64,000 nt of DNA from Niabella aurantiaca DSM 17617 (lineage in GTDB: Bacteria > Bacteroidota > Bacteroidia > Chitinophagales > Chitinophagaceae). A model generated the notes under the pieces. The model saw only the letters and a program-made list of their open reading frames with translations, was not told where the DNA came from and did no database searches. The stretch lies in assembly GCF_000374125.1 (NCBI RefSeq), contig NZ_KB893645.1:109-64108 (forward strand). Reading direction: 5' to 3'. A program made the position numbers and the translations under genes. Shown here piece after piece: positions 13,722 to 40,892 of this stretch (its first letter is position 1; each line of letters opens with the position of its first letter).

Positions 13722-13959
13722 CTGCGTTGAATGCCGATCGCCTCTGGGGGCATTGGCGGTGCAAAAGTAGGGCCTAATGGGCAGGAGATGGTGTTTTGCA
13801 GACCGGTTTTTTTCATTTTGCCGGGGCTGACAGAAAAGCAACGCTTTTTGCAGCGGCCGGTCTGCCGGCACCCCGTTTCTTCCCCCGGTTGATGTACCCG
13901 CAACCCGAAAACGTTGTAGGACTTTTTTCGGATTCCTGTATGACTTGTTTATATATTTA

Positions 13960-13988
13960 TACAAATGATTGTTTGTACAAGCGCTTGT
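13960..13988. promoter_or_regulatory. Overlapping palindromes, possible operator
   Basis: Two overlapping dyads 40 bp upstream of the lyase gene: TACAAA-N6-TTTGTA (13960-13977) and the perfect 12-bp palindrome ACAAGCGCTTGT (13977-13988), embedded in AT-rich DNA. They look like a regulator binding site. No regulator gene is adjacent, so the factor is unknown. Confidence 0.35.
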
Positions 13989-17967: not shown

Positions 17968-18053
17968 GTGGTGCGTAGTGAATCGGTCTATTCCGTGGGA
18001 GCGACATATTTATGGCCCCGTTGGGGCAAATGGTAATAATAAAAAATAAATGC

Positions 18054-19127
18054 ATGTTACGTATCGGAATTATAGGATTAGGTGAAGGCCGTAGCACAAT
18101 GTCAGCTGCATTGCAAAGTAAAAAATTGCAGTTAAAAATGATCTGCGATGCCAATGAGGAATTGTGTAAGCAACGCAGCAAAGAATTCCGGTTTGAGCAT
18201 TATACCACGTGTTATGAGACGTTATTGGAGAATCCGGATATTGATATTGTGGCCATTTATACACCGGATCACTTACATGCGCAGCATGTACAGCTGGCGT
18301 TGGAGCATGGTAAGCATGTGGTATGCACCAAACCTTTTATAGATGACCTGGCAGATGCAAAGGCATTGCTGAAATTACAACAGCAGGCCGGGAAAAAGGT
18401 CTTTGTAGGGCAGAGCTCCCGTTTTTTTGAACCCTATAAACGGCAGCGTTCCGATTTTGAAAAAGGCCTGATCGGGGAGCTGATCACGGTAGAGAGCCAT
18501 TACAATGCAGATCACCGTTGGTTTTTAAAAAAGAAATGGGCGCTGGGAAAATCGTTTAAATGGTTGTATGGCGGATTGAGCCACCCGGTTGATTTTATCC
18601 GCTGGTACCTGCCGGATATTGAAGAAGTGATGGGGTATGGTATGATCAGTGCCAATGGGGAAAAAGCCGGTCTGAAAAACGAGGATACCATGCATTTTAT
18701 TTTCAGGAACAGGGATGGAAGGGTGGCACGCGTGAGTGGTGCATATACAGGACCCGTACAACCCACCAGCCGCGAAAGCGAGATGAGCTGTATCCTGCGC
18801 GGGACGGAAGGCGCGAGCCAGGCGGATTATCATGAGCTGCGTTATGCACTTACCAATAAAAAAGGTGAGCAGCAGCTGATCACCTGGGGCGATCAGCAAC
18901 TGAATCATTATTTCCGTTTTGAGGGGCAGACCCATCATGCCGGTGAGTACCAGAATTACCTGGAGTATTTTGCAGACAGTATCAGCAATGATACGGTGGC
19001 CTACCCTGATATGCGTGAAGGGATCAGAACCGTGGCATTGCTGCAGGCGATGGATGAAAGTTTAAGAACGCGGCAGCCCGTTGGGGTAAAGGCGCTGCTG
19101 AAACAATATGGGCTGGGGAAATTGTAG
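18054..19127 (+). CDS. Gfo/Idh/MocA family NAD(P)-dependent sugar dehydrogenase
   Basis: A 357-residue cytosolic oxidoreductase. The start is the ATG at 18054 (MLRIGIIGLG), directly before the Rossmann G-x-G-x-x-G; upstream in-frame ATGs lie in an intergenic hairpin repeat. Family marks are Y-T-P-D-H-L-H-A, G-K-H-V-V-C-T-K-P (usual E-K-P is T-K-P here) and the G-G-L-S-H-P-V-D catalytic His region near residue 185. Such enzymes oxidise or epimerise sugars. In known D-apiose pathways the first step, D-apiose to D-apionolactone, is done by a member of this family (ApdH), and this gene lies in the same locus as a GH140 and RuBisCO-like gene. That assignment is a hypothesis; other sugars are possible. 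Confidence 0.8.
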   Translation: MLRIGIIGLGEGRSTMSAALQSKKLQLKMICDANEELCKQRSKEFRFEHYTTCYETLLENPDIDIVAIYTPDHLHAQHVQLALEHGKHVVCTKPFIDDLADAKALLKLQQQAGKKVFVGQSSRFFEPYKRQRSDFEKGLIGELITVESHYNADHRWFLKKKWALGKSFKWLYGGLSHPVDFIRWYLPDIEEVMGYGMISANGEKAGLKNEDTMHFIFRNRDGRVARVSGAYTGPVQPTSRESEMSCILRGTEGASQADYHELRYALTNKKGEQQLITWGDQQLNHYFRFEGQTHHAGEYQNYLEYFADSISNDTVAYPDMREGIRTVALLQAMDESLRTRQPVGVKALLKQYGLGKL

Positions 19128-19292: not shown

Positions 19293-20867
19293 ATGAACCA
19301 TCTTATTTCCAGATTGCAACCGGTCGATTATGCCATTGTGGTGGTGTACCTCGTGGTATTGCTGGTCATTGGCTACCGCGCCAGCTTTGGCAAAAAAAAG
19401 AAAAAGGAAGAGACCCTGTTCCTGGCCGGCAAATCATTGAACTGGTACAATATCGGGTTCAATATGTGGGGCACCAATGTGGGGCCGTCGATGCTGCTGG
19501 CCTTTGCCAGCATTGGTTATGCCACGGGTATTGTGGCCGGTAATTTTGAATGGTATGCTTTTATATTCCTGATGCTGCTGGCGATGGTATTTGCTCCGCG
19601 GTACCTGGCCAGCAAGGTAACCACCATGCCGGAGTTCATGGGACAGCGGTATGGCGAAGATACGCGGAACATCCTGGCCTGGTATGCGCTGGTGAAGATG
19701 CTGATCTCCTGGTTATCGCTCGGCCTTTTTGCCGGCGGCTTCCTGGTGCGGCAGATACTGGGCATTCCCATGTGGCAATCGGTGATCGTGCTGGTGTTGT
19801 TTGCAGCGCTGTTTGCGGTGGCAGGTGGCCTGAAGGCAATCGCCCGTGTAAATGTGTTCCAGATGATCTTACTGATCATTGTGTCCTGCATTCTTTGTGT
19901 ACTGGGTATTCAAAAGGTAGGCGGGCTCTCCGCATTGTTCGCCGGAACGCCGGATTCTTACTGGAGTCTTGTCCGGCCCGCATCCGATCCGGCTTATCCC
20001 TGGCCGGCTATCTTGCTGGGCTACCCGGTTTCGGCGGTCGCTTTCTTTTGTACGGACCAGGCCATGGTACAATCGGTGCTGGGCGCGCGCAACCTGGAGC
20101 AGGGGCAGCTGGGCGTAAGCTTTATTGGCTGGCTGAAGATCCTCTCCATTCCGCTGTTCATCATACCCGGTATTGCCTGTGCCGTATTGTACCCGCAGCT
20201 GGCAAGTCCGGATGAAGCCTATATGACGATGGTTACGAATTTATTCCCTGCCGGGTTGAACGGCCTGGTGATCGTAGTGCTGATCGCCGTACTGGTGGGT
20301 ACCATCGGCTCTTCTTTAAACGCCCTGAGTACGGTTTTTACAACGGATATCTACGTAAAGAAAATAAATCCTGCCGCCACCAACCGGCAGATCATCAAGG
20401 TAGGACGTCTTACCGTGCTGGCGGGCTGCGGGTTTGCGATTTTGATGGCTATAGCCATCGATAGCATCAAAGGCCTTAATTTGTTTGATGTATTCCAGGC
20501 GGTGCTGGGCTTTATTGCACCTCCCTTATCGGCTGTATTCCTGCTGGCCGTGTTCTGGAAAAAGACCACGCGCAGGGCGGTGAATTTTACGCTTTCCTGG
20601 GGATCGGCCATCAGCCTGGGTATTGGGGTGGTGTATTTGTGGGTGTTGCCGGTAAAAGAATATACCTTCTGGCCGCACTATCTGTTGCTGTCGTTTTTTA
20701 TTTTCCTGTTGCTCGTTGTTATTGCCATGCTTATTTCCATTACGGATCCGCATCCCGTGCGGACAGCAGTGGCCACGCAGGAGCTGGCAAGGCCCACGCG
20801 GCGTGTGAAGATCGTTTGGGGCGCTTTATGCACGGTTATGATTGTTTTGTATTTAATATTTGGTTAG
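19293..20867 (+). CDS. Sodium:solute symporter (SSS/SLC5 family)
   Basis: A 524-residue inner-membrane transporter with about 13-14 predicted helices. The N-terminal helix V-D-Y-A-I-V-V-V-Y-L-V is followed by the family-typical L-F-L-A-G-K-S-L-N-W and W-G-T-N-V-G-P-S-M segment. Later blocks include the R-x-Y-L-A-S-K-V-T-T-M-P-E-F-M cytoplasmic stretch and G-S-S-L-N-A-L-S-T-V-F-T-T-D-I-Y. These match bacterial sugar or acid:Na+ symporters. It lies between the dehydrogenase and a GH78 gene, 3 bp before the latter's earliest possible start, so it probably imports a sugar released by the secreted enzymes, for example rhamnose or apiose. Confidence 0.88.
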   Translation: MNHLISRLQPVDYAIVVVYLVVLLVIGYRASFGKKKKKEETLFLAGKSLNWYNIGFNMWGTNVGPSMLLAFASIGYATGIVAGNFEWYAFIFLMLLAMVFAPRYLASKVTTMPEFMGQRYGEDTRNILAWYALVKMLISWLSLGLFAGGFLVRQILGIPMWQSVIVLVLFAALFAVAGGLKAIARVNVFQMILLIIVSCILCVLGIQKVGGLSALFAGTPDSYWSLVRPASDPAYPWPAILLGYPVSAVAFFCTDQAMVQSVLGARNLEQGQLGVSFIGWLKILSIPLFIIPGIACAVLYPQLASPDEAYMTMVTNLFPAGLNGLVIVVLIAVLVGTIGSSLNALSTVFTTDIYVKKINPAATNRQIIKVGRLTVLAGCGFAILMAIAIDSIKGLNLFDVFQAVLGFIAPPLSAVFLLAVFWKKTTRRAVNFTLSWGSAISLGIGVVYLWVLPVKEYTFWPHYLLLSFFIFLLLVVIAMLISITDPHPVRTAVATQELARPTRRVKIVWGALCTVMIVLYLIFG

Positions 20868-20903
20868 CATATGATGAGTAAAAAAAATAATGACCCCGGC
20901 GGT

Positions 20904-21010
20904 GGTACTACTATGTTGCTTGACTTGCGTCGCACACTTGTACAGCAGTACAGGTCTCCGCTTTTGAAACCCTTCGTGTGTCTTTGTGTCTTTGCGTCCT
21001 CGTGGTTCTC
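20904..21010 (+). repeat. Two intergenic-type repeats encoding a signal peptide
   Basis: GTACTACTATG...CTTGCGTCGCAC (20904-20943) is shared with 55084-55121. Directly after, at 20971-21010, comes a TGTGTCTTTGTGTCTTTGCG-type element that I recall as an intergenic repeat in many bacteria. Together they encode the N-terminus of the GH78 protein. Confidence 0.65.
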
Positions 21011-23117
21011 TGCCGCGGCCCAAACCTGGATCTGGTATCCCGGCGATTATGAAATATGGCTGGCGAACGAAATGCAGAACCGCCGTACGGAAAGAGGCAC
21101 TTTTTACCCGGTGTTCTGGAGGGCAGACAGTCATTATCCCCTGGTGGATTTTCACAAAGAATTTAACCTGGCGCAACCGGAAACGGTAATGGTCCATGCA
21201 GAAGGGCGATACAATATCAAGCTGGATGGCAAAGCGTTCCCGGGAACCCCGCAGGCTATTGAAGTACCGGCGGGTAAGCACAAGATCAATATCAAAGTAT
21301 TCAACCAGGCCGCGCCACCCGCCGTTTTTGTAAAAGGCCGGACAATCATATCCGATAGCAGCTGGCAGGTAACCTTTGAGGATAAGGAATGGATCGATGA
21401 AACGGGTAAGGCATCGGATCTGTCGGCCACGGTATTTAAACATGCCGGCAGCTGGAATTTTAATAGTGCGGCTGCGACCCCTTCCGCTTATAAGCTTCCG
21501 GTAACACCGGTGGAGGCGAAGTCAGCAGAAAAAATGAACGGAGGTCTACTGGTCGATTTTGGGAAAGAGACCTTTGGTTTTGTAAAGCTGCAGGGTATAA
21601 AGGGAAAAGGAACGATATCGCTTTATTATGGCGAAAGCCGGGAAGAGGCGCTGGATACTGCCGCTTCGGAAACCTTTGATCGCATAACCATCGATCAGTT
21701 AAATGCTGCCGATACCGTCAGCCCCCATTCAAAAGCGCTTCGGTATGTGAACATTGTAACGGATGGCAATGTGCAACTGGATCATGCTTCTCTCTTGTAT
21801 GAATATGCGCCGCTGGAAGACAAAGGCGGCTTCCGTTGCAGTGATGCGGAAATAAACCGGATTTATGATGTGGCCAAATATACCTTGCATCTCAGTACGC
21901 GGGAATTCTTTATCGACGGGATCAAGCGCGACCGCTGGATCTGGAGCGGGGATGCCTATCAAAGCTATCTGATGAATTATTACCTGATGAACGATAACGA
22001 AACGGTAAAGCGTACCATTTATGCATTGCGCGGAAAAGACCCCGTGAACAGCCATATCAATACCATTATGGATTATACCTTCTATTGGTTTATGGGCGTT
22101 TATGATTATTATCTCTATAGCGGTGATAAAGATTTTCTGGTGCAGAACTACGGACGCATGAAATCGTTGATGGACTTTGTCTGGAACCGGCGCAATAAGA
22201 ACGGCTTGCTGGAAGGGCTGCCGGGCGACTGGATCTTTATCGACTGGGCAACGGGCCTTAGTAAAAAAGGGGAGGTGAGCTTTGAGCAATTGCTTTTTGC
22301 GCGGAGCCTGGAAACGATGGCGCTCTGCGCGGAATTGGCGGGGCGCGGGGATGATGCTGCGCAATACAAAACCGCGGCAGCGAAGCTGAAACAGAAATTA
22401 TTTTCCATTTACTGGAGCGACAAAGCAAAGGCACTGGTGCACAGCAGGGTAAATGGTCAGCCTACGGAGAATGTGACCCGTTATGCCAATATGTTCGCGA
22501 TCTTCTTTGGCTATTTTAACAAACAGCAGCAACAGGATGTGAAGACCTCCGTGTTGCTGAATAAAAATGTTCCGGCCATCACCACGCCATATATGCGCTT
22601 TTATGAGCTGGAAGCGCTTTGTGCGCTGGGCGAACAAAACTATGTGCTGCAGGAAATGAAGAATTACTGGGGCGGCATGCTGAAGCTGGGTGCCACCTCT
22701 TTCTGGGAGGAATATGATCCCTCCAAAAAAGGAGCGGAGCACTACGCCATGTACGGCAGGAAATACGGTAAAAGCCTTTGCCATGCCTGGGGTGCCAGCC
22801 CGCTATACTTGCTGGGTAAGTATTACCTGGGAGTAAGCCCTACTGCCCCCGGCTTTGAACAATATGAGATAAAACCGGCATTGGGCGGTTTAAAATGGAT
22901 GAAAGGCAAAGTGCCTACCCCCGCCGGCACCATTGAATTGTATTGCAGTGATCAGGAAATAAAGATCCAATCACCGGTAGGGACCGGAAAGCTGATCCTT
23001 AGCAGCAGGAAAAAGCCGGTGTGTAAAGAAGGGGAAGTAGTGAGCAAAGGAAATAGCAGGTATGAATTAAGAATAGAGAAGCACAAGGAATACAGGGTTT
23101 TATATAAAGCGATTTAG
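20913..23117 (+). CDS. Secreted alpha-L-rhamnosidase-like enzyme (GH78)
   Basis: A 734-residue exported (alpha/alpha)6-barrel enzyme. I prefer the start at 20913 (MLLDLRRTLV), which leaves a plausible signal peptide ending S-A-A-A-Q; ATGs at 20871 and 20874 are possible. After N-terminal beta domains, the catalytic part shows S-T-R-E-F-F-I-D-G-I-K-R-D-R-W-I-W-S-G-D near residue 345. This is the GH78-type region holding acidic catalytic residues (usual form D-C-P-x-R-x-E-R-x-x-W-x-G-D), here variant with I-D-G-I-K-R-D-R. A second block, W-E-E-Y-D-P, and H-A-W-G-A-S-P complete the family pattern. It should release terminal alpha-L-rhamnose. Its N-terminus is encoded by intergenic repeats. Confidence 0.78.
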   Translation: MLLDLRRTLVQQYRSPLLKPFVCLCVFASSWFSAAAQTWIWYPGDYEIWLANEMQNRRTERGTFYPVFWRADSHYPLVDFHKEFNLAQPETVMVHAEGRYNIKLDGKAFPGTPQAIEVPAGKHKINIKVFNQAAPPAVFVKGRTIISDSSWQVTFEDKEWIDETGKASDLSATVFKHAGSWNFNSAAATPSAYKLPVTPVEAKSAEKMNGGLLVDFGKETFGFVKLQGIKGKGTISLYYGESREEALDTAASETFDRITIDQLNAADTVSPHSKALRYVNIVTDGNVQLDHASLLYEYAPLEDKGGFRCSDAEINRIYDVAKYTLHLSTREFFIDGIKRDRWIWSGDAYQSYLMNYYLMNDNETVKRTIYALRGKDPVNSHINTIMDYTFYWFMGVYDYYLYSGDKDFLVQNYGRMKSLMDFVWNRRNKNGLLEGLPGDWIFIDWATGLSKKGEVSFEQLLFARSLETMALCAELAGRGDDAAQYKTAAAKLKQKLFSIYWSDKAKALVHSRVNGQPTENVTRYANMFAIFFGYFNKQQQQDVKTSVLLNKNVPAITTPYMRFYELEALCALGEQNYVLQEMKNYWGGMLKLGATSFWEEYDPSKKGAEHYAMYGRKYGKSLCHAWGASPLYLLGKYYLGVSPTAPGFEQYEIKPALGGLKWMKGKVPTPAGTIELYCSDQEIKIQSPVGTGKLILSSRKKPVCKEGEVVSKGNSRYELRIEKHKEYRVLYKAI

Positions 23118-23300: not shown

Positions 23301-25307
23301 ATGAAGAAGTATTTTTTGATCGCGGGCTTTATTTCAGGCAGCGCCGCCACCTACGGCCAGCAGGGCCTGGTAAACACGGATAAAAGCCCCTATGCAACGC
23401 TGTCGACAGTGGGCCTGGGTGATGTACAATTTACCGGCGGCTTCTGGGCCGAACGTTTTGCTGTTTGCCGGGATGAAATGGTACCCACGCTCTGGAAGAC
23501 CTATACCAGCGATACGATCTGTTATGCATTCCAGAATTTCAGGAGAGCGGCCGGACTGGATACGGGGAGATTCCGGGGACCTTCTTTTCACGACGGCGAT
23601 TTTTATAAAACGCTGGAGGCATTGGCTGCGATGTATGCGGTTACAAAAGATCCGGAGCTGAACCGGTGGCTGGAAGAGGCGATTGCTGTGATCGGCAGGG
23701 CGCAGCGGGCAGATGGGTATCTCTACACAAAGAATATTATTGAACAGCAACGGACCGGTGCGCAGAAGATGTTTGATGACAAGCTCAGCTTTGAAGCTTA
23801 TAACTTCGGGCACCTGATGACCGCAGCCTGTGTGCATTACCGGGCCACAGGTAAAACCGACCTGCTGCGTATTGCAACGAAGGCTGCTGACTTCCTCATC
23901 GGGTTCTATAACACCGCCACACCGGAGCAGGCACGCAATGCGATCTGTCCGTCGCATTACATGGGACTGGCGGAGTTGTACCGCACCACGCATCAGAAAA
24001 AATACCTTGACCTGCTGGTGAAATTGATTGATCTCCGTGGCACAGTTGAAGGCACCGATGATAACAGCGACCGGGCCCCCTTCCGGGAAATGAAAAAGAT
24101 TGTTGGCCATGCCGTGAGGGCTAATTATCTTATGGCGGGCGTCGCTGACCTGTATGCAGAGAATGGCGATAAGACGTTGAAGCATACATTGGATCAGTTG
24201 TGGAACAATGTCATCACTACAAAAATGTATATAACCGGCGGTTGCGGCGCTTTGTATGATGGAGTGTCGGTAGACGGTACTTCCTATAAACCGGACACGG
24301 TACAGAAGGTGCATCAGTCTTATGGAAGAGATTACCAGCTGCCCAACTTCAGTGCCCATAACGAAACCTGCGCCAATATCGGGAATGTGCTCTGGAACTG
24401 GCGCATGTTTTTATTGACCGGCGATGAGCGGTATATGAATATTGTGGAACTGGCTTTATACAACAGTGTACTAAGTGGAGTGAGCCTGGATGGAAAGGAT
24501 TATTTTTATACCAACCCCCTGGCTGCAGCAAAAGATTATCCTTACCAGCTGCGATGGAGCGGAGGAAGGAAACCCTATATCAGTTTGTCCAATTGTTGTC
24601 CTCCTAACCTGGTACGCACGATTGCGGAAGTGGGGGATTATATGTATAGTGTGGGTAAGACCGGCTTGTACATCAATACCTACAGCAGCAACCGGCTGAA
24701 AACAAAATGGCTGGATGGTCATTCCATACAATTGACGCAGCAAAGCAATTATCCCTGGCAGGGAAACGTAGTGATCACCATTCAACAGGCGCCGGCAGCG
24801 ATGCCCATTCATTTGCGCATTCCCGGATGGTGCAAAAATGCTACGCTGAAATACAAGGGAACCGCAAGAAATGCTGAAGGCGGCCGGTATGTACGTCTGG
24901 ACGGAAACTGGAAGCCGGGTGATAAAATAGAGCTGATCCTGGAAATGCCGGTTCAGCTGATGGAAAGCAATCCCCTGGTAGAAGAGACCCGCAACCAGGT
25001 AGCGGTCAAAAGAGGACCGGTGGTGTATTGCCTGGAGTCTCCGGATTATAAAAAAGGTAAAATCACAAACGTAGTGATCCCCTCGGATATAAAATGGAAC
25101 CCGGTTCCGGTTAATTTAGATCACGCAACATTTATGGCGTTAACAGGAACCGCAAAGGCAGTTACCGGTGAAAGCTGGGATCATACACTTTACCAGGAAG
25201 TGAAAAAGGAACTGCGGCCGGTAACGGTAAAACTGATCCCCTATTATGCCTGGGCCAACCGGGGACAAAGTGATATGGCGGTGTGGCTGCCGTTGATGCG
25301 GAACTAA
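23301..25307 (+). CDS. Secreted GH127-family (DUF1680) glycosidase
   Basis: A 668-residue exported protein (signal peptide ends T-Y-G-Q) of family GH127, which acts through a zinc-bound cysteine. By comparison with the beta-L-arabinofuranosidase HypBA1, the zinc ligands would be Glu355 and Cys357 (HNETCAN) and Cys432-Cys433 (SNCCPPN), with Cys432 as nucleophile. The position of the HypBA1 acid/base Glu appears to be Gln339 (HQSYGRDY), which needs an alignment to confirm. Characterised family activities include beta-L-arabinofuranosidase and, in RG-II breakdown, removal of aceric acid. Both fit this locus. Gaps of 183 and 120 bp separate it from its neighbours. Confidence 0.85.
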   Translation: MKKYFLIAGFISGSAATYGQQGLVNTDKSPYATLSTVGLGDVQFTGGFWAERFAVCRDEMVPTLWKTYTSDTICYAFQNFRRAAGLDTGRFRGPSFHDGDFYKTLEALAAMYAVTKDPELNRWLEEAIAVIGRAQRADGYLYTKNIIEQQRTGAQKMFDDKLSFEAYNFGHLMTAACVHYRATGKTDLLRIATKAADFLIGFYNTATPEQARNAICPSHYMGLAELYRTTHQKKYLDLLVKLIDLRGTVEGTDDNSDRAPFREMKKIVGHAVRANYLMAGVADLYAENGDKTLKHTLDQLWNNVITTKMYITGGCGALYDGVSVDGTSYKPDTVQKVHQSYGRDYQLPNFSAHNETCANIGNVLWNWRMFLLTGDERYMNIVELALYNSVLSGVSLDGKDYFYTNPLAAAKDYPYQLRWSGGRKPYISLSNCCPPNLVRTIAEVGDYMYSVGKTGLYINTYSSNRLKTKWLDGHSIQLTQQSNYPWQGNVVITIQQAPAAMPIHLRIPGWCKNATLKYKGTARNAEGGRYVRLDGNWKPGDKIELILEMPVQLMESNPLVEETRNQVAVKRGPVVYCLESPDYKKGKITNVVIPSDIKWNPVPVNLDHATFMALTGTAKAVTGESWDHTLYQEVKKELRPVTVKLIPYYAWANRGQSDMAVWLPLMRN

Positions 25308-25427: not shown

Positions 25428-26672
25428 ATGGAGCGGGTGATTGCAACATATTACATCGAAACGCCGTATGAGCCGGAGCAAGCGGCTGCGGTGCTGGCAG
25501 GGGAGCAGTCTTCCGGAACCTTTGTAGCAGTGCCCGGGGAAACCGAGGCCCTGAAACAGCGCTTTGCTGCGCGTGTGGAAACAGTGAAGTTCCTGGAGAC
25601 CGTGGGTCAACCGGCTATGCCGGGAGCTGTCAGCAGGGAGGGGAAGTATCACCGGGCAATGGTACGCGTATCCTGGAGTATGGAGAATTTTGGATACAAC
25701 CTGCCGGTGCTCATTTCCACCCTGCAAGGCAATCTCTATGAGATAACACAGTTCACCGGGTTGAAGCTGATGGATATTGAACTGCCGGAAATATATGGAA
25801 CGTATTTTAAAGGCCCGCAGTTTGGCATCAGCGGCAGCCGGAAACTGACCGGTGTGGAAGGCCGTCCGTTGATCGGTACCATTATCAAACCCTCCATAGG
25901 GCTTACTGTGGAAGAAACGGCAGCATTGGTGAAGACCCTGGCAACCGCGGGGATCGACTTTATAAAAGATGATGAGCTGTTATCCTCGTCGGCAAACTCC
26001 GCTTTTGAAGATCGCGTTGAGGCCGTAATGCGTGTATTGAGCGCGTATGCGGATAAGACCGGAAAGAAAGTGATGTATGCGTTTAACATCAGCGGAGAAA
26101 TGGACCAGATGCTGCAACGGTATGAAACGATTTTGAGATGGGGTGGTACCTGTGCCATGATCAGCATCAACAGCGTCGGGTTGGCGGCTGCAAAAAAGAT
26201 CGCGGATCAGGGGCAGCTCGCCATACATGGTCATCGTAATGGTTGGGGTATGCTTACACGGCATCCCTTGCTGGGAATCGATTTCAGGGCTTACCAGAAA
26301 CTATGGCGGCTGGCGGGTGTGGATCAGCTGCATGTGAACGGAATCCGGAATAAATTCTGGGAAACGGATGACAGTGTGGTCAGTTCGATAGAGGCCTGCC
26401 TGGAAGACCTGTTTGACCACCGGAAGCCGCTGCCGGTCATTTCATCGGGGCAATGGGGTGGCCAGGCATTTGAAACCTGGAACCGGACGCACACGGTGGA
26501 TTGCCTGTACATGGCCGGTGGAGGGATCATGGCGCATCCGATGGGGCCCGCTGCCGGAGTGGTGGCGCTGCAGCAGGCCTGGCAGGCTGCGGTAGCAGGA
26601 TACAGCCTGGAAGAGGCGGCGCGGCAGTATCAAGAGTTTGGAAAAAGTGTGGAGAAATTTGGAAATCGATAA
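25428..26672 (+). CDS. RuBisCO-like protein, OiaT/OiaX-type candidate
   Basis: A 414-residue cytosolic RuBisCO large-chain relative (form IV). Lys154 in TIIKPSIG matches the catalytic Lys175 of RuBisCO, and Lys180-Asp181-Asp182-Glu183 match the carbamylated Lys201 and its metal ligands. The loop-6 Lys is kept in HVNGIRNKF, and the phosphate-binding GGG is present (MAGGGIMAHPMG). The second Lys of the T-x-K-P-K motif is Ser, so it is not a CO2-fixing enzyme. RuBisCO-like proteins next to DUF1537 kinases act in D-apionate breakdown on 3-oxo-isoapionate 4-phosphate, either as decarboxylase (OiaX) or transcarboxylase/hydrolase (OiaT). The kinase gene follows after 3 bp. Which of the two reactions applies cannot be told here. 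Confidence 0.85.
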   Translation: MERVIATYYIETPYEPEQAAAVLAGEQSSGTFVAVPGETEALKQRFAARVETVKFLETVGQPAMPGAVSREGKYHRAMVRVSWSMENFGYNLPVLISTLQGNLYEITQFTGLKLMDIELPEIYGTYFKGPQFGISGSRKLTGVEGRPLIGTIIKPSIGLTVEETAALVKTLATAGIDFIKDDELLSSSANSAFEDRVEAVMRVLSAYADKTGKKVMYAFNISGEMDQMLQRYETILRWGGTCAMISINSVGLAAAKKIADQGQLAIHGHRNGWGMLTRHPLLGIDFRAYQKLWRLAGVDQLHVNGIRNKFWETDDSVVSSIEACLEDLFDHRKPLPVISSGQWGGQAFETWNRTHTVDCLYMAGGGIMAHPMGPAAGVVALQQAWQAAVAGYSLEEAARQYQEFGKSVEKFGNR

Positions 26673-26675
26673 AGC

Positions 26676-28025
26676 ATGCGGCAGAATAAGGAACTTTTAC
26701 TTGCTTTTTATGGCGATGATTTTACCGGCTCAACGGATGCACTTGAATTTATCTGCAGGGCCGGGGCAAGGGCGGTATTATTTATAGAGCCACCGGATGT
26801 AAAACAACTGGAGGCGTTTGATGATTTGGATGTCATTGGAGTAGCAGGCAAAACCCGTTCCTTGCCTGCCGATGAGCTGGAAACAACACTGGAAACGGCG
26901 TTTCATAAAATGAAAGATTGCGGCGCAAAGCACATTCATTATAAAGTATGCTCTACGTTTGATTCGTCGGCGGCAACGGGCAGTATCGGCCGCGCCATAG
27001 ATACGGGGCAGCGTGTATTTGGGAATCCTCTGGTGCCCGTTTTAGGCGGAACACCCTCCCTGGGGCGTTACTGTGTATTTGGGAACCTGTTTGCCCGGAT
27101 GGGTATTGGCAGTGAAGGCGCGATCTACCGGCTGGACCGCCACCCTTCAATGAGCAAACACCCGGTTACGCCTGCGGATGAAAGCGATCTGCGTATTCAT
27201 CTGCAACGGCAAACTGAAAAAAGGATCGGTCTGATCGATATCATGCAGCTATGCCGGCCGCCGGCATTATGGAATGCGGCGCTCGGGGATGAACAGGCGG
27301 TGCTGATTGATGCCTTATATGAAGCACAACTGGTAACGATCGGAGAATGGCTGGATGGGCATTGCGTAAATCCCGGGGGAGCGATTTTTTCAGTAGGCAC
27401 CTCGGCAATCGAAATGGCATTGGGCCGCTACTGGAATCAAAAAGGTGTATTGCAGCCGGTTACCACCTGGGATCATCCGGGCAAAGCAGCGCCGTTATTG
27501 GTGATTTCCGGCAGCTGTTCACCTGTAACGGCAGGCCAGATCGGCTGGGCAAAAGCAAATGGGTTTGAAGAGCTGGTGCTGGATGCAACAAAAGCCTGCA
27601 ACGATGAGCCAGACACGGTTTTGGATGAGAAGCTGGATCGGCTGTTGGCAAACGGAAACAGTGTCGTCATACATACGGGCACGAAGGAAGGAGGAACGCT
27701 TTCTTCCCGGAAGTTGGGCACCACACTGGGCGGGCTGGCAAAAAAAGCAGTGGTGACACACCGTGTTAAGCGGGTGGTCATTGCCGGAGGGGATACCAGC
27801 AGTTATGCGGCCCGGGCAATGGAGATCGAAGCAGTAGAGATGATCGCTCCCCTTGTAAGCGGGGCGCCCCTGTGCAGGGCACGGTCGTTGCATTCCGCCA
27901 TAAATGGGCTGGAAGTGAATTTTAAGGGAGGGCAGGTAGGCGCTGCGGATTATTTTGGCGTTCTCTTAAACGGGGAGCTGGAAAAAACGGAAGGTGCCCC
28001 GGGGACACCGGGAAACGCATTATAA
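26676..28025 (+). CDS. DUF1537 four-carbon acid sugar kinase family, OiaK-like candidate
   Basis: A 449-residue cytosolic kinase of the DUF1537 family. The N-terminal domain has G-D-D-F-T-G-S-T-D-A, the family hallmark, then H-Y-K-V-C-S-T-F-D-S-S and R-H-P-S-M-S-K-H-P-V-T-P. The C-terminal nucleotide-binding domain has L-V-I-S-G-S-C-S-P-V-T, then V-I-A-G-G-D-T-S-S-Y-A and A-P-L-V-S-G-A-P-L-C. Known members phosphorylate 3-oxo-tetronates, threonates or 3-oxo-isoapionate. Because it is 3 bp from a RuBisCO-like gene and in a locus with an apiosidase, 3-oxo-isoapionate kinase (OiaK) is the favoured reading. The next gene starts 29 bp downstream, so the operon continues. Confidence 0.85.
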   Translation: MRQNKELLLAFYGDDFTGSTDALEFICRAGARAVLFIEPPDVKQLEAFDDLDVIGVAGKTRSLPADELETTLETAFHKMKDCGAKHIHYKVCSTFDSSAATGSIGRAIDTGQRVFGNPLVPVLGGTPSLGRYCVFGNLFARMGIGSEGAIYRLDRHPSMSKHPVTPADESDLRIHLQRQTEKRIGLIDIMQLCRPPALWNAALGDEQAVLIDALYEAQLVTIGEWLDGHCVNPGGAIFSVGTSAIEMALGRYWNQKGVLQPVTTWDHPGKAAPLLVISGSCSPVTAGQIGWAKANGFEELVLDATKACNDEPDTVLDEKLDRLLANGNSVVIHTGTKEGGTLSSRKLGTTLGGLAKKAVVTHRVKRVVIAGGDTSSYAARAMEIEAVEMIAPLVSGAPLCRARSLHSAINGLEVNFKGGQVGAADYFGVLLNGELEKTEGAPGTPGNAL

Positions 28026-28054
28026 AAGAAATAATAACGAATAAAAAAAACAAT

Positions 28055-28717
28055 ATGGCAAAAAAAACATTGGGCCTGGTACATACGTCAGCAACGCTGG
28101 TGCCGGTATTTGCGGAGCTATGTAAGCAATATATCCCGGATGTGAATGTATTTAATATCGTCGATGACAGCCTGATCAAAAATACGATCGCCTGTGGAGC
28201 GCTGACACCGCAAACGGGAAAGCGGGTGGTAGACTATGCGGGTTCGGCGCAGGATGCGGGTGCCGATTATATCCTGTTTACCTGCTCATCCATTGGTCCG
28301 GCTGTAGAAACAGCGGCTACATTAAGTACGGTTCCGGTTTTGCGGGTAGACCAGCCGATGGCGGATAAGGCCATTGCCGCCGGACGTAAGATAGGGGTGA
28401 TCGCCACCCTGGCAACCACGCTGGAGCCTACCAGTGATCTGGTAAGGCGCCGCGCGGCGCTGGCCGGAAAGGAGATCGGGCTGGTACCGGTACTTTGCGA
28501 GGGGGCGTTTGATGCGCTCATGAGCGGGGATGCAGCTACACATGATCAAAAAGTGGGCGCAGCACTGAAACAACTGTCTGATGAAGTGGAAGTGATCCTG
28601 CTGGCCCAGGCTTCAATGGCGCGGGTGGTAGATACGCTGGCGGAAGAAGATAAGAAAGTGCCCATATTGGCGAGTCCGCCGATCGCGATGGAATACCTCG
28701 CAGCATTGCTTGCTTAG
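28055..28717 (+). CDS. Asp/Glu racemase-fold protein with one catalytic Cys
   Basis: A 220-residue cytosolic protein of the aspartate/glutamate racemase superfamily. The first Cys motif is present at Cys77 (L-F-T-C-S-S-I-G), and R-V-D-Q-P-M and G-V-I-A-T-L fit the fold. In place of the second Cys motif (usually G-C-T) residues 184-187 read A-Q-A-S, so a two-base racemisation is not possible in the usual way. One-Cys members include arylmalonate decarboxylases; in maleate isomerases both Cys are normally kept. It is co-directional with the RuBisCO-like and kinase genes, with gaps of 29 and 33 bp, and probably handles an acid intermediate of the same pathway, as isomerase or decarboxylase. Exact reaction unknown. 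Confidence 0.7.
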   Translation: MAKKTLGLVHTSATLVPVFAELCKQYIPDVNVFNIVDDSLIKNTIACGALTPQTGKRVVDYAGSAQDAGADYILFTCSSIGPAVETAATLSTVPVLRVDQPMADKAIAAGRKIGVIATLATTLEPTSDLVRRRAALAGKEIGLVPVLCEGAFDALMSGDAATHDQKVGAALKQLSDEVEVILLAQASMARVVDTLAEEDKKVPILASPPIAMEYLAALLA

Positions 28718-28750
28718 CAGAACCGAACCGTTCGGGTGATAAAATAAAAA

Positions 28751-30088
28751 ATGCGCCGTCATATGCAAAAATTATACAGGATTAGTTTAATAGGCAGTGG
28801 TATTGCAGCAGTTGTATCCCTGGCAGGTTTGACACTGCATATTGCAGCGGTTGCCCAGGCCTTTGTGCTGATCGCCACGATCCTGCTGGCGTTGGGATTG
28901 GGCGCCCTGCCTTCCATGAAAGGGTATCAATATACAGCATGGATCATTGCAGCGGTGGTCGCCGGTATGATCTACCCGGAGGCATTTACCAGCTGGGGAT
29001 CCATAGATCTTCGCGATAAAACACTGATACTGGTGATCGTTCAGCTGGTGATGTTTGGTATGGGCACACATATGAGCCTGAAGGATTTCAAAGGGCTGGC
29101 AACAACAGGCAAAGGCGTTCTGGTTGGATTGTTCTGTCATTTTTCCATAATGCCGCTAATGGGGTATTTATTGACAAGGCTGTTTCATTTTGATGCAGAA
29201 ATTGCTGCGGGGATCATATTAATTGGCAGCTGCAGCAGCGGGCTGGCTTCCAATGTAATGGTTTACCTGGCACGTGCCAATCTCGTATTGTCTGTGATCG
29301 TAACAGCAATGGCTACGCTGGCGGCGCCCTTTCTTACGCCGTTGCTGATGAAGACCTTTGCGGGTACGTTGATTGATGTAAAGTTTGCAGACATGATGAT
29401 TGAGATCATCAAGATCGTGATCGTGCCCATTGGCGCAGCCCTGTTGCATGATTATTTAAAGCATACCGCTCCGGCTAAAAAAAGAAAGCTGTATGGTGTG
29501 GCGGTGGTTTGCGCGCTCTATGCTATCGGACTATTGCTGGGAGGATATGATTGGATGCAAGCCAGGATCGGAGTTCATACGGTATTGCAGTCGCTGGAGC
29601 TTTCAGGATTCCTTGCGGGTGCTGTGGTAGCAGGTGTGGTGTACCATTGGTTGCAGCACCGGTACCCGGCGATAGATAAAGGAATGCCGTATATCTCCAT
29701 GTTTGGCATTGTTTATTTTACAACCGTTACCACGGCTGCGGGGAGGGATCATCTGATGCAGGTAGGGGCACTTTTGTTCATTGCCTCGGTCATTCATAAT
29801 GCCGCAGGATATTTTTTCGGATACTGGCTAAGCCGCTTATTCGGGATGGATAAGCATTCAAGTCGCACAATTGCTTTTGAAGTAGGTTTGCAGAATGGCG
29901 GCATGGCCAGCGGCCTGGCAGGAAGTATGGGAAAGCTGGGTACGGTTGGTCTGGCGGCGGCTGTTTTTAGCCCGTGGATGAATATCAGCGGCAGCATCCT
30001 GGCTAATTATTGGAGAAGAAGACCCGTGACAGCACCGGAAAAGGGATTAAAGGAACCGGAGGTCAGCTTAAAGGAGGGGGCGTTTTAA
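28751..30088 (+). CDS. BASS-family organic acid:sodium symporter
   Basis: A 445-residue inner-membrane protein with about 12 helices, of the bile acid:Na+ symporter type. Marks are V-M-F-G-M-G-T-H-M-S-L-K-D-F near residue 100, G-S-C-S-S-G-L-A-S-N-V-M-V-Y-L-A-R-A-N near 158 (Na+-site region), and F-E-V-G-L-Q-N-G-G-M-A near 376. The first two helices and the extended middle are longer than in the 300-residue members. A second ATG at 28763 would shorten it by four residues. Members carry carboxylates, so it could import or export an acid sugar used by the RuBisCO-like/kinase module just upstream. Confidence 0.82.
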   Translation: MRRHMQKLYRISLIGSGIAAVVSLAGLTLHIAAVAQAFVLIATILLALGLGALPSMKGYQYTAWIIAAVVAGMIYPEAFTSWGSIDLRDKTLILVIVQLVMFGMGTHMSLKDFKGLATTGKGVLVGLFCHFSIMPLMGYLLTRLFHFDAEIAAGIILIGSCSSGLASNVMVYLARANLVLSVIVTAMATLAAPFLTPLLMKTFAGTLIDVKFADMMIEIIKIVIVPIGAALLHDYLKHTAPAKKRKLYGVAVVCALYAIGLLLGGYDWMQARIGVHTVLQSLELSGFLAGAVVAGVVYHWLQHRYPAIDKGMPYISMFGIVYFTTVTTAAGRDHLMQVGALLFIASVIHNAAGYFFGYWLSRLFGMDKHSSRTIAFEVGLQNGGMASGLAGSMGKLGTVGLAAAVFSPWMNISGSILANYWRRRPVTAPEKGLKEPEVSLKEGAF

Positions 30089-30184: not shown

Positions 30185-33100
30185 ATGTTGGGTTTAAGAT
30201 CATTGATCGTTATAGGTGCTTTACTTTTTTTGTTGCCGGAGGGTAAAGGGCAGCGCAGTGTGGTGCCCTCTCTGGAAGCGGTGCTGGCCCACCCTCCGCA
30301 AGATGCCCGTCCCTGGGTGTTCTGGTACTGGATGCATGCGGCGGTCTCCAAAGAGGGCATCACTGCCGACCTGGAATCGATGAAAAATGCCGGGATCGGT
30401 GGCGCCTACCTGATGCCGATCGGTGATACCTCCGTAAAGCTGCCCTATGCACATCCGGTGCGGCAGCTCACTCCGAAATGGTGGGGCATGGTCAATCATG
30501 CGATGAAGGAGGCAAAGCGGCTGAACTTAAAGCTGGCCATGCATTTCAGTGATGGCTTTGCGCTGGGTGGTGGTCCCTGGATCACTCCCGAACAGTCTAT
30601 GCAAAAGCTTACCTGGAGCAAGACCTATATAAAAACCGGATCAAAAATGCCTGTTACGCTGGATCAGCCGGCATCGAATGAAGACTATTACCGCGATGTG
30701 GCCGTTTTTGCCTACCCGGCTAAAAGCCGGGTGGCATTTGCAGATCAAAAGGCCAGGCCGCTGGTCAGAACGAGCACCGGTGTTGCGGCGGATTTCCTTG
30801 CCCTGCCGGATACCGGGAATAAACAGAGCTTTAAAACAGATAGTGCTGCATGGATCCGGTACGAATATCCCGGGCCTTTTACCATAAGATCGGTGCGTAT
30901 TCATATTGGGGGCAATAACTATCAGGCCTTACGGCTGATCCTGGAAAGCAGTGATGACGGCCTGCATTTTAAAAGGATCGCCCGGCTGGAGCCGCCCCGC
31001 CATGGCTGGCAGGATACGGACGAAGATTACACGTTTTCCATACCCGCTGCGACAGCAAAATTTTTTCGCTTTGTTTATGATCAAACAGGTGCTGAGCCGG
31101 GGGCGGAGGACCTGGATGCGGCAAAATGGAAACCTTCGCTGAAGGTGATGGGGATCTATCTGAACGATGAGCCGGTGATCAACCAGTATGAAGCGAAGAA
31201 CGGCAGTATATGGCGGGTTGCTGCAAACACAGACAGCCTGCAGGTTCCGGACCGGGATGCGGTATCATTAAAAGATGTTATTGATCTGACCGGAAAAATG
31301 AATAGCGACGGAACGCTGAACTGGGCGCCTCCGTCGGGCAATTGGGTCATTGTACGCATCGGGCATACCAGCACCGGGCATGTAAACGCCACCGGCGGTG
31401 CAGGAAAAGGACTGGAATGTGATAAGTTTGACCCGGAGGCGATAAGGCTGCAGTTTGATAGCTGGTTTGCAAAAGCTTTTGAAAAAACAGATCCGGGTAT
31501 TGCAAAAGAAGTGCTGAAAGTTTTTCATGTGGACAGCTGGGAATGCGGCAGTCAGAACTGGGGCCATAACTTTCTTTCTGAATTCCGGCGGCGGCGCGGA
31601 TACGATCTGCAGCCGTATCTGCTGGTGATGACCGGTGTGCCGCTGGAAACTGCAGCCGCTTCAGAAAGGATCCTGCATGATGTGCGTACCACCATTGCGG
31701 AGCTGATCCGGGATGTTTTTTATACTACTTTGCAGGAGCTGGCACATCAAAAAGGAACCCGCTTCAGTGCAGAAAGTGTGGCGCCCACCATGGTGAGTGA
31801 CGGGCTGCTGCACTACCAGTCGACAGATATTCCCATGGGCGAGTTCTGGCTCAATAGCCCTACGCACGACAAGCCCAATGATATGCTGGATGCGATCAGC
31901 GGTGCACATATCTATGGCAAGAATATTATACAGGCAGAGGCATTTACGACCTTACGAATGGACTGGGGCGAACATCCCGGTAACCTTAAAGTGCTGGGTG
32001 ACCGCAATTTTGCAATGGGCATCAATAAAATGGTGTTGCATGTGTTTGCCCACAACCCCTTCGTCAACAAAAAGCCGGGGGTGACCCTTGATGGGATCGG
32101 CCTGTATTTTCAGCGGGACCAGACCTGGATGAAGCCCGGTAAAGCCTGGATCGATTACCTGGCAAGGACTTCTGCGTTATTGCAGTTGGGGAAACCCGTT
32201 GCGGATATTGCCGTGTTTACGGGGGAAGAGCTGCCCCGGCGCTCTGTGCTGCCGGAGCGGCTGGTACAAACGCTTCCCGGCCTCTTTGGAGCCGTAGCGG
32301 TGGCCCGTGAAAAAATAAGGATGGAGAATGCCGGGCAACCTATGACCCGGCAGCCCTCCGGTGTACTGCATGCCGCCAATATTGCAGATCCCGGTGACTA
32401 CATCAATGCCCTGCATGGATATAAATATGATTGTTTTAACCCGGATGTATTATTGAAAATGTATGTGGAGAAGGGCAGGGTAGTTACACCGGGCGGTGCT
32501 TCCTATGCGGTGCTGGTAATTCCGGGCAAACAGGCCCTGAACCCGAACAGCCACCTGCTGTCGGTAGCGGTGGCAAAAAAGATACAACAGCTGGTGCAGG
32601 ATGGAGCTACGGTCATTATGGACAGAGGGTTTGATGCCACCATTGATTTTAAAGAGAGCGAAACCGGATTACAGGCGATATTAAAAGAGCTGTATGCAAG
32701 CAGGAACCTGATTGCTGCACCCTACCGGGAACAGGATCTCCGGAGGATCGGTCTGGAGAAGGATGTGGAAGTATTGAAAGGCAGCGATACCATTGCATGG
32801 GCACATCGCCGTCTTCTGGACGGGGATCTTTATTTTATTTCCAATCCCGTTGAACGAAAACGCACGTTGGAAATAGCGTTCCGGGTAAAAGAGGGCATGC
32901 CGCAGTTATTAGACGCTGTAACAGGCAGTGTAACGGGCACAGCGAGCTGGCGCAGGGAAGGAGCACGCACGGTGGTGGATATTGATTTGGAACCCAACGC
33001 ATCCGTGTTCATCCATTTTAAAAAAGCGGGGCGGCAACAATCCGCCGCAAAACAACCGTCGCGGACAAGAGAAACCGGGGCGGTTGTTTCCGGTAATTGG

Positions 33101-33550
33101 CAGGTGCAGTTTGATCCCGCGTTTGGTGGCCCGCGGTCCGTTGTGGCGATGAAGACGCTGAAACTCTGGAATGCATTTGATGAGCCGGCGATTAAATATT
33201 ATTCCGGCACGGCTCTCTACAGGAATCAATTTAAATGGAACCGGCCATCCACTGGTCGGCCCGTCTGGCTGGAGCTGGACAGTCTGTACAACCTGGCTTC
33301 AGTAAACGTAAACGGTATTGATTGCGGTACCGTCTGGACCTACCCGTACAGGGTGGATATTTCAAAAGCAGTTAAAAAAGGGACCAATACCCTGGAAATA
33401 GCAGTTACCAATACCTGGGCAAACCGGCTGGCGGGCGATCAGCAGCTGCCGGAAGCAAAACGGGTCACCTGGACCACGGCGCCCATTCGCCTGCAGGGGA
33501 AACCACTGCTGCCGGCCGGTTTGAAGGGGGAGGTCCGGATTGTTCAATAA
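30185..33550 (+). CDS. Secreted alpha-L-rhamnosidase (GH106)
   Basis: A 1121-residue exported enzyme (signal peptide ends G-K-G-Q). It matches GH106 in length and order: P-R-P-W-V-F-W-Y-W-M-H near residue 42, M-K-N-A-G-I-G-G-A-Y-L-M-P, K-L-A-M-H-F-S-D-G-F near residue 118 (the family's W-x-N-G-position variant), H-V-D-S-W-E-C-G-S-Q-N-W around 448, and F-S-A-E-S-V-A-P-T near 535 with a candidate catalytic Glu. The last 150 residues are a GH2-type beta-sandwich (L-W-L-D/E-L and N-T-L-E-I-A-V-T-N-T-W-x-N-R). A Bacteroides GH106 acts on RG-II, which fits this locus. It starts 96 bp after the BASS gene. Confidence 0.88.
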   Translation: MLGLRSLIVIGALLFLLPEGKGQRSVVPSLEAVLAHPPQDARPWVFWYWMHAAVSKEGITADLESMKNAGIGGAYLMPIGDTSVKLPYAHPVRQLTPKWWGMVNHAMKEAKRLNLKLAMHFSDGFALGGGPWITPEQSMQKLTWSKTYIKTGSKMPVTLDQPASNEDYYRDVAVFAYPAKSRVAFADQKARPLVRTSTGVAADFLALPDTGNKQSFKTDSAAWIRYEYPGPFTIRSVRIHIGGNNYQALRLILESSDDGLHFKRIARLEPPRHGWQDTDEDYTFSIPAATAKFFRFVYDQTGAEPGAEDLDAAKWKPSLKVMGIYLNDEPVINQYEAKNGSIWRVAANTDSLQVPDRDAVSLKDVIDLTGKMNSDGTLNWAPPSGNWVIVRIGHTSTGHVNATGGAGKGLECDKFDPEAIRLQFDSWFAKAFEKTDPGIAKEVLKVFHVDSWECGSQNWGHNFLSEFRRRRGYDLQPYLLVMTGVPLETAAASERILHDVRTTIAELIRDVFYTTLQELAHQKGTRFSAESVAPTMVSDGLLHYQSTDIPMGEFWLNSPTHDKPNDMLDAISGAHIYGKNIIQAEAFTTLRMDWGEHPGNLKVLGDRNFAMGINKMVLHVFAHNPFVNKKPGVTLDGIGLYFQRDQTWMKPGKAWIDYLARTSALLQLGKPVADIAVFTGEELPRRSVLPERLVQTLPGLFGAVAVAREKIRMENAGQPMTRQPSGVLHAANIADPGDYINALHGYKYDCFNPDVLLKMYVEKGRVVTPGGASYAVLVIPGKQALNPNSHLLSVAVAKKIQQLVQDGATVIMDRGFDATIDFKESETGLQAILKELYASRNLIAAPYREQDLRRIGLEKDVEVLKGSDTIAWAHRRLLDGDLYFISNPVERKRTLEIAFRVKEGMPQLLDAVTGSVTGTASWRREGARTVVDIDLEPNASVFIHFKKAGRQQSAAKQPSRTRETGAVVSGNWQVQFDPAFGGPRSVVAMKTLKLWNAFDEPAIKYYSGTALYRNQFKWNRPSTGRPVWLELDSLYNLASVNVNGIDCGTVWTYPYRVDISKAVKKGTNTLEIAVTNTWANRLAGDQQLPEAKRVTWTTAPIRLQGKPLLPAGLKGEVRIVQ

Positions 33551-39939: not shown

Positions 39940-40854
39940 TTGAAAAGGATTATCATCATACTGATTATCGCGATTGCAGTCAGCTCCTGCTCCAGCAAGA
40001 CTTACCTGTTCACCTCCTTTCATGAACCTGCCGATGCCGGTTTACGGATGCTGTACAGCTATGACGGCTATCACTGGACCGATCTTGATACCACTTTTCT
40101 AAAGCCAGCTGTGGGACAGCAAAAAGTGATGCGTGATCCATCGATGGTGCAGGGGCCGGACGGTAGTTTTCACCTGGTGTGGACCAGCAGCTGGCGGGGA
40201 GATAAGGGCTTTGGTTATGCTTCCTCAAAAGATCTGCTGCACTGGAGCAAGCAGCAGTTCATACCGGTAATGGAGCAGGAGCCAACAACAGTAAATGTAT
40301 GGGCGCCGGAATTATTTTACGACGGTGCGGCAAAGGATTACAAGATCATCTGGGCCAGTACCATTCCCGGGCGCTTTGAACGGGGGATGGAAGAGGATAG
40401 CAACAATCACAGGATGTATGTCACTACCACAAAGGATTTTAAAACCTTCACGCCGGCAAAGTTGTTCCTGGATCCCGGTTTTAGCGTGATCGATGCAGTG
40501 ATCGTTAAAAAAGAGCGGGCCGGTTATGTACTGGTATTAAAAGACAATACGCGGCCGGAACGGAACCTGAAAGTGGCGTTTTCAAATGACCCGCTTGGCC
40601 CCTGGGAAAATGTGTCAAAACCCTTTTCCGACCACTTTACCGAAGGCCCCTCGGTGGTTAAGATAAAAGACCGCTGGCTGATCTATTATGATTCGTACCG
40701 TAAAAAGATCTACGAGGTAAAAGCAACAAAGGACTTTCGTCATTTTGAAGATATTACCGGCCAGGTCATGGTTCCGGAAGGACATAAACATGGTACGATT
40801 GTGCCGGTGAAGAAAAAAGTGGTGCGGCGATTGGTTAAACAATTTAGAAAATGA
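39940..40854 (+). CDS. GH43-family lipoprotein glycosidase
   Basis: A 304-residue five-bladed beta-propeller enzyme anchored as a lipoprotein (lipobox V-S-S-C at residues 14-17). The start is TTG at 39940; a stop lies three codons upstream and no suitable ATG exists. GH43 marks are M-R-D-P-S-M (general base Asp region), W-A-P-E-L-F-Y-D near residue 122, D-P-G-F-S-V-I-D-A (pKa-modulating Asp) and T-E-G-P-S-V-V-K (catalytic acid Glu). Family members mostly remove alpha-L-arabinofuranose or beta-D-xylose; in this locus an arabinose of RG-II or of its side-chain neighbours is likely. The stop overlaps the next frame by 4 bp. Confidence 0.82.
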   Translation: MKRIIIILIIAIAVSSCSSKTYLFTSFHEPADAGLRMLYSYDGYHWTDLDTTFLKPAVGQQKVMRDPSMVQGPDGSFHLVWTSSWRGDKGFGYASSKDLLHWSKQQFIPVMEQEPTTVNVWAPELFYDGAAKDYKIIWASTIPGRFERGMEEDSNNHRMYVTTTKDFKTFTPAKLFLDPGFSVIDAVIVKKERAGYVLVLKDNTRPERNLKVAFSNDPLGPWENVSKPFSDHFTEGPSVVKIKDRWLIYYDSYRKKIYEVKATKDFRHFEDITGQVMVPEGHKHGTIVPVKKKVVRRLVKQFRK

Positions 40855-40861
40855 AAACAAA

Positions 40862-40892
40862 TAGCCCAGGGTTGAAACCCAGGGGAAACAAT
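40862..40892 (+). repeat. Short hairpin repeat before the propeller gene
   Basis: AGCCCAGGGTTGAAACCCAGG-type segment with a GGGTT-GA-AACCC hairpin. It lies inside a longer possible reading frame from 40851 but looks intergenic, supporting the start at 40893. A similar small hairpin (GCCCC-GTT-GGGGC) precedes the dehydrogenase gene at 18015-18027. Confidence 0.5.

Follow-up and report, generated by a model that had tools for sequence, protein, structure and literature searches.

Four adjacent genes in Niabella aurantiaca DSM 17617, and the glycoside hydrolase gene that precedes them, are the subject of this work. They lie in a stretch of 64,000 nucleotides (contig NZ_KB893645.1, positions 109 to 64,108; the whole of it is called the window here, and its first letter is position 1). 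An earlier note, made from the letters and their open reading frames, had described the four genes as co-directional and separated by gaps of 3, 29 and 33 bp, and both the reading frames and Pfam bear this out. All are on the + strand, and we refer to them as the cassette:

25428-26672, + strand: RuBisCO-like protein (RLP), 414 amino acids; Pfam RuBisCO_large at 214.5 bits, above the gathering score

26676-28025, + strand: four-carbon acid sugar kinase (former DUF1537), 449 amino acids; Pfam SBD_N at 164.9 and NBD_C at 92.3 bits, above the gathering scores

28055-28717, + strand: Asp/Glu-racemase-fold protein, 220 amino acids; Pfam Asp_Glu_race (PF01177) at 84.8 bits, cut-off 31

28751-30088, + strand: BASS-family transporter, 445 amino acids; Pfam SBF at 110.7 bits, above the gathering score

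The gene ending 120 bp upstream of the RLP gene is:

23301-25307, + strand: GH127 aceric acid hydrolase, 668 amino acids; GH127 Pfam domains

The cassette thus sits between a GH127 and a GH106 gene, 8 kb from a GH140 gene, as had been said of it and as Pfam agrees, with the difference that the GH127 protein can now be named more exactly: over residues 20-665 it scores 1128.2 bits against the NCBIfam model NF049879, ‘aceric acid hydrolase’ (cut-off 950). A passage of PMC5698469 gives this name to BT1003, and gives the structure of aceric acid as 3-C-carboxy-5-deoxy-L-xylose.

The cassette is found in Bacteroidota, Balneolota, Verrucomicrobiota and Planctomycetota; Lacibacter luteus and Flavobacterium pectinovorum are among its carriers. 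A scan of contigs for related RLP loci yielded 80 at 59-80% identity, these being the best 80 of 577 relatives, and tblastn detects the kinase in 76 of them, the racemase-fold gene in 74 and the BASS gene in 70; for the 69 loci with at least 4.5 kb of downstream sequence the figures become 68, 68 and 65. Gene order, tested strictly, is kept in 57 of these 69, and four more fail solely because genes overlap, by some 10 bp at most. The genes are rearranged in another four (L070, L071, L114 and L116), with the racemase-fold and BASS genes placed ahead of the RLP and kinase genes or on the opposite strand, the BASS gene is missing from three (L118, L122 and L125), and in Pontibacter qinzhouensis (L063) a cassette-clade RLP is found by itself, the kinase, racemase-fold and BASS genes being absent within about 10 kb, in a genome that has the hydrolase. 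In several genomes (e.g., L065, L075, L081 and L088) the four genes are isolated among unrelated ones, and therefore the cassette seems to perform a complete task that is separate from the hydrolysis of polymers. Among 395 genomes sampled from the phylum, host included, an RLP match (E <= 1e-30) occurs in 90; it is close (68-100% identity) in 8 and stands at 27-32% in the remainder.

Cassette and hydrolase travel together. A hydrolase homologue lies directly upstream of the RLP gene, on the same strand and within 250 bp, in 24 of the 79 loci with at least 360 bp of upstream sequence; such loci span Chitinophagaceae, Sphingobacteriaceae, Flavobacteriaceae, Flectobacillaceae and Balneolota, and the genes beyond the hydrolase vary. 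In the genomes of the nearest RLPs, a hydrolase match of at least 832 bits is present in 78/80 (49/50 and 29/30) and one over the curated cut-off in 62/80 (46/50 and 16/30), against a background in the phylum sample of 21/395 and 20/395, respectively; in Verrucomicrobiota, searched for the hydrolase only, 11 of 288 genomes reach at least 850 bits and one passes the cut-off. Of the two misses, one (L057) is a metagenome-assembled genome whose contig begins inside the hydrolase, residues 549-667 of which lie beside the RLP, and the other (L124) has no hydrolase at E <= 1e-100 and carries upstream a gene like that of ApnL, an enzyme of the oxidative D-apiose pathway (NF049900, 288.7 bits, cut-off 750). 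All 8 close-RLP genomes of the phylum sample fall among its 20 hydrolase-positive ones, with a chance of 9.2e-12 if genomes are taken as independent, which these 8, belonging to four families, are not.

The RLP gene is the sole match to the RuBisCO family PF00016 in the host genome (5.9 Mb, 25 contigs). The RLP had been likened to OiaT or OiaX of D-apiose catabolism and the kinase to OiaK; OiaX and OiaK are indeed the closest curated models, both scores being under the cut-offs: the RLP, about 50% identical to OiaX, scores 511.6 bits against NF042437 (cut-off 700; a Rhizobium OiaX reaches 781.8), and the kinase 379.1 bits against the OiaK model NF042436 (cut-off 700), a value that the kinase encoded next to a Rhizobium oiaX misses as well (475). 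In a tree of 98 rows, the 80 cassette rows make up one fork (100/96), sister to OiaX (96/86), whose 5 rows form a fork of their own (100/100). Because this tree has very long branches, a smaller one of 48 rows was made, in which 33 cassette rows fork at 98/94, outside the OiaX clade and sister to it (92/79). The phylogeny that the earlier note had suggested thus yields a separate clade sister to OiaX. The RLP of L124 is drawn outside the cassette clade in both trees, and a tree joining it to the cassette is not rejected, having p-AU 0.765 and a higher likelihood. A grouping with the methionine-salvage RLPs, which according to the same note would have spoken against its proposal, is rejected, as the MtnW models score 177.3 and 138.3 bits, far below their cut-offs of 409 and 513.6.

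The residues that the earlier note had read are likewise in place: K154-P155-S156 in the RLP, where Ser replaces the second Lys of T-x-K-P-K, followed by K180-D-D-E, and GDDFTGST at residue 13 of the kinase. In spinach numbering, K177, a hallmark of CO2-fixing RuBisCO, is Ser in 81/81 cassette rows, and all 81 (L124 included) keep E60, T65, N123, K175, K201, D203, E204, H294, R295, H327, K334, S379, G381, G403 and G404. Where the cassette rows have E60, N123, H327 and S379, the five OiaX rows carry D, G, Q and G/C; the solved relative 3nwr, as read from the alignment, retains the same four as the cassette. RuBisCO residues of this type, which would suit the reaction of OiaT, the RLP of Xanthobacter autotrophicus to which we return below, are kept in other RLPs too.

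As to the other two proteins, the predicted structure of the racemase-fold protein (pLDDT 96.5) is matched by Foldseek to hydantoin, aspartate and glutamate racemases; in an alignment to racemases, the pair of catalytic Cys needed for two-base racemisation is not present, C77 being kept and the position of the second being Gln185 in 75/75 rows. The BASS protein scores 210 bits against the PanS model, below the cut-off of 400.

We propose, with a probability of about 0.7, that the cassette serves to catabolise aceric acid freed from rhamnogalacturonan-II (RG-II) by the adjoining hydrolase; the earlier note had aceric acid, as an example of other RG-II sugars, among its alternatives, and this has now become the best reading. 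From gene content, adjacency, co-occurrence, clade and residues we infer the substrate, the order of the steps and the products. The branched acid would first cross the inner membrane through the BASS protein, its predicted importer. It would then be converted to 3-C-carboxy-5-deoxy-L-xylulose by an aldose-ketose isomerase, a role for which the cassette offers a single candidate, the racemase-fold protein. This ketose, HOCH2-CO-C(OH)(COOH)-CH(OH)CH3, would be a beta-keto acid with its carboxylate on the carbon next to the ketone, and 3-oxo-isoapionate is HOCH2-CO-C(OH)(COOH)-CH2OH. Since the former equals the latter plus one carbon, CH(OH)CH3 replacing CH2OH, a pair of the OiaK/OiaX type would suit it without ApnL and ApnO, the enzymes for which the isomerase would stand in. 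The OiaK-like kinase, predicted to be the C1 kinase of the ketose, would phosphorylate it at that carbon, and the RLP would enolise the ketose phosphate, the branch carboxylate being lost from its carbon. Judged by sequence, the RLP is predicted either to decarboxylate the phosphorylated ketose or to transcarboxylate and hydrolyse it.

Two exits are conceivable. In an OiaX-like exit (a), CO2 would be released to leave 5-deoxy-L-xylulose 1-phosphate, from which rhamnulose-1-phosphate aldolase could yield dihydroxyacetone phosphate and acetaldehyde; the host genome has a bifunctional rhamnulose-1-phosphate aldolase of 706 amino acids, over three NCBIfam cut-offs. In an OiaT-like exit (b), the carboxyl would be shifted to C2, and hydrolysis of the bond would yield 3-phosphoglycerate and L-lactate. 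A reaction of type (b) is plausible for the cassette RLP in view of its kept residues, and we lean slightly towards it, because there is no aldolase in the cassette and the RLP retains RuBisCO residues that OiaX has lost. In a search of the 80 related loci for a recurring aldolase or lactate dehydrogenase, an LldD-like query matched in none and a RhaD query gave weak matches only, in 6. The proposal in its fullest form, a route for aceric acid that the literature searched does not describe and in which a one-Cys racemase-fold isomerase is joined to an RLP that moves the carboxyl (RuBisCO chemistry run backwards and then forwards) to yield 3-phosphoglycerate and L-lactate, is tentative, and rather unlikely to hold in all its parts.

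The surroundings of the cassette are those of a polymer-degrading locus:

18012-19127, + strand: Gfo/Idh/MocA oxidoreductase (Pfam)

19293-20867, + strand: sodium:solute symporter, possibly a further sugar importer (Pfam SSF)

20871-23117, + strand: GH78-like rhamnosidase (Pfam)

30185-33550, + strand: GH106 alpha-L-rhamnosidase; Pfam Glyco_hydro_106 at 572.4 bits

38214-39614, + strand: GH140 apiosidase; Pfam Apiosidase at 375.5 bits; 8.1 kb beyond the cassette

40851-42731, + strand: BT_1020-like protein (GH33-type); Pfam Beta-prop_BT_1020 at 393 bits

56751-57608, + strand: xylose-isomerase-like TIM-barrel protein; Pfam AP_endonuc_2 at 75.7 bits; N-terminus signal-peptide-like by eye

The window locus is taken for an RG-II locus because GH78, GH106, GH140, GH141 and BT_1020-like genes surround the hydrolase, and the link drawn earlier between polymer breakdown and branched-sugar catabolism finds support in this. 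The GH141-type protein (15478-17967) is an enzyme-mutarotase fusion, its residues 730-826 forming a C-terminal L-rhamnose mutarotase (rhaM) domain. The same RG-II region holds a gene resembling those of FMN-dependent L-lactate dehydrogenases (57845-59002; NF008398 at 283 bits, cut-off 376), which would be suited to L-lactate formed from rhamnose or by exit (b), and, about 11 kb from the BT_1020-like gene, a DHDPS-family aldolase (54067-55008), possibly acting on 3-deoxy-D-manno-octulosonic acid (Kdo) or 3-deoxy-D-lyxo-heptulosaric acid (Dha). An open reading frame on the - strand (12435-13964) matches HAD, ACT and, in part, 2-hydroxyacid dehydrogenase, a domain make-up unusual for a protein of the serine pathway, and a phage-baseplate/type VI injector OB-domain protein is encoded at the window edge (34-705).

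RG-II loci were compared over stretches of 34-97 kb from 7 RLP-positive genomes and 12 hydrolase-positive, RLP-negative ones, absences being meant within the reach of these stretches. All four cassette genes are in 7/7 of the first and in 0/12 of the second, and the glycosidase and other RG-II genes, BT_1020-like included, are common to both. In principle, the substrate could be another acidic residue or product of RG-II (Dha, Kdo or an aldonate), and cassette and hydrolase would then be linked only through co-membership of large RG-II loci; such loci degrade RG-II generally, and the Asp/Glu-racemase and BASS families often handle other acids. We find this very improbable, given that the remaining RG-II genes occur in RLP-negative loci too and that, among the RG-II acids, aceric acid is the only one known to have its carboxylate on a tertiary-hydroxyl branch carbon, like 3-oxo-isoapionate.

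The same comparison bears on the isomerase. The racemase-fold protein is a candidate by elimination only, proposed because the scheme needs an isomerase in the cassette and the cassette stands alone in some genomes. It could also be, at less than even odds, that the substrate is aceric acid and that the isomerase is the TIM-barrel protein, or one of the rhamnose- or arabinose-type, the racemase-fold protein being an epimerase, a decarboxylase or something else. The lack of a second Cys would fit this, and so would the distribution of the TIM-barrel protein, which is found in 7/7 RLP-positive versus 4/12 RLP-negative RG-II loci and has homologues in 9 of the 80 related loci. The same protein, however, is also present where there is no RLP, and its N-terminus looks like that of a secreted protein, whereas the racemase-fold gene stays with those of the kinase and the RLP in the stand-alone cassettes and in the three loci without BASS.

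In the earlier note, apiose was the main substrate, and this part of it we find unsupported. The RLP and the kinase would in that case act on 3-oxo-isoapionate (4-phosphate) supplied by enzymes non-homologous to ApnL and ApnO, as could be argued from their closest curated models, from the position of OiaX as sister to the cassette clade in both trees, and from the GH140 apiosidase, which lies 8 kb off and occurs in 8/8 RLP-positive genomes of the phylum sample (22/395 overall). Yet both proteins miss the curated cut-offs, and the neighbour of the cassette is the aceric acid hydrolase, whereas just 2 of 62 long loci have GH140 at a distance of up to about 10 kb. The genome search for ApnL and ApnO, proposed in the earlier note, gave no match in the host and 7 cassette-bearing relatives with one Rhizobium query each, the controls being positive (the query's own record for ApnL, three records for ApnO).

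There is, besides, a second module in the host genome that could serve apiose. Contig C1 carries at 629172-638204 an eight-gene operon for a FucI-like isomerase, a split transketolase, an RbsB-type binding protein, a DUF2291 protein, an ABC ATPase, a permease and an FGGY kinase, and in six loci related genes adjoin the cassette. The binding protein, ATPase and permease of the C1 operon share 40-46% identity with their counterparts in the oiaX operon of Rhizobium, and its DUF2291 protein, so named by Pfam, has no BLAST match to the Rhizobium DUF2291. We take this operon to resemble the D-apiose transketolase route, and as such it is a candidate for apiose specificity; Carter et al. 2018 reportedly described both that route and the oxidative D-apiose pathway with OiaX and OiaK. 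The C1-type transketolase is found in 22 of 50 genomes searched (cassette-bearing 3/8 and 19/30, cassette-free 0/12). Because of the adjacency of the hydrolase, the absence of ApnL and ApnO, this separate candidate operon and the chemistry, we favor aceric acid and regard apiose as an improbable substrate.

Several observations pull in the opposite direction, and are included in the probability that we give to aceric acid. The closest curated relative of the RLP, OiaX, acts on an apiose derivative, and the kept residues do not discriminate between the two sugars, as L124 and two RLPs beside ApnO-like genes also keep them. The absence of ApnL and ApnO is a sequence result from a single query apiece, and the transketolase is absent from 16/38 cassette genomes, which therefore have no such alternative route for apiose. 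GH140 co-occurs with the cassette just as the hydrolase does, being found without an over-cut-off hydrolase in 3/395 genomes and lacking beside one in 1/395, and therefore aceric acid and apiose cannot be told apart by co-occurrence alone. Nor is the association with the hydrolase uniform: it is not directly upstream in 55/79 loci, its match is below cut-off or absent in 18/80 genomes of the nearest RLPs, and a close RLP is absent from 12/20 hydrolase-positive genomes of the phylum sample. Finally, we know of no precedent for a sugar isomerase of the one-Cys racemase fold.

Often described as the most complex polysaccharide of plants, RG-II is dismantled by enzymes that are largely known; for the aceric acid released, no metabolic route is described in the open-licence literature searched. 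If the aceric acid reading is correct, the cassette would provide a route for its use, a new RLP substrate and possibly a new chemistry for the Asp/Glu-racemase fold. Its four genes would then be markers distinguishing the hydrolase carriers able to use aceric acid from those that perhaps only release it, and an orphan RLP branch of soil and plant-associated bacteria would become directly testable.

Among known systems, the RG-II loci of Bacteroides thetaiotaomicron, with BT1003, share with the window the aceric acid hydrolase as well as further RG-II glycosidases; in Bacteroides ihuae a hydrolase passes the cut-off and the RuBisCO family has no match. L-rhamnose catabolism would share the proposed logic of isomerase, kinase and cleavage, and the product of exit (a) could be a substrate of its aldolase; it differs in that the cassette would need an extra RLP step for the branch carboxylate, and in the families of isomerase and kinase. 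The oxidative D-apiose pathway differs as well, for the cassette lacks ApnL and ApnO, adds the racemase-fold and BASS proteins and adjoins the aceric acid hydrolase. According to a passage of PMC6302742, the Agrobacterium RLP decarboxylates 3-oxo-isoapionate 4-phosphate, and that of Xanthobacter transcarboxylates and hydrolyses it. The reaction of the latter, OiaT, would suit the residues of the cassette RLP, the two being compared by described activity. With OiaX and OiaK the cassette has in common the pairing of both families as adjacent genes, an RLP identity of about 50% and, as expected, a beta-keto-acid chemistry; it is set apart by its separate clade, its scores below the cut-offs, and the E60, N123, H327 and S379 that are changed in OiaX. 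It is thus best read as a real and conserved system of the OiaK plus RLP type, whose substrate would be a different one.

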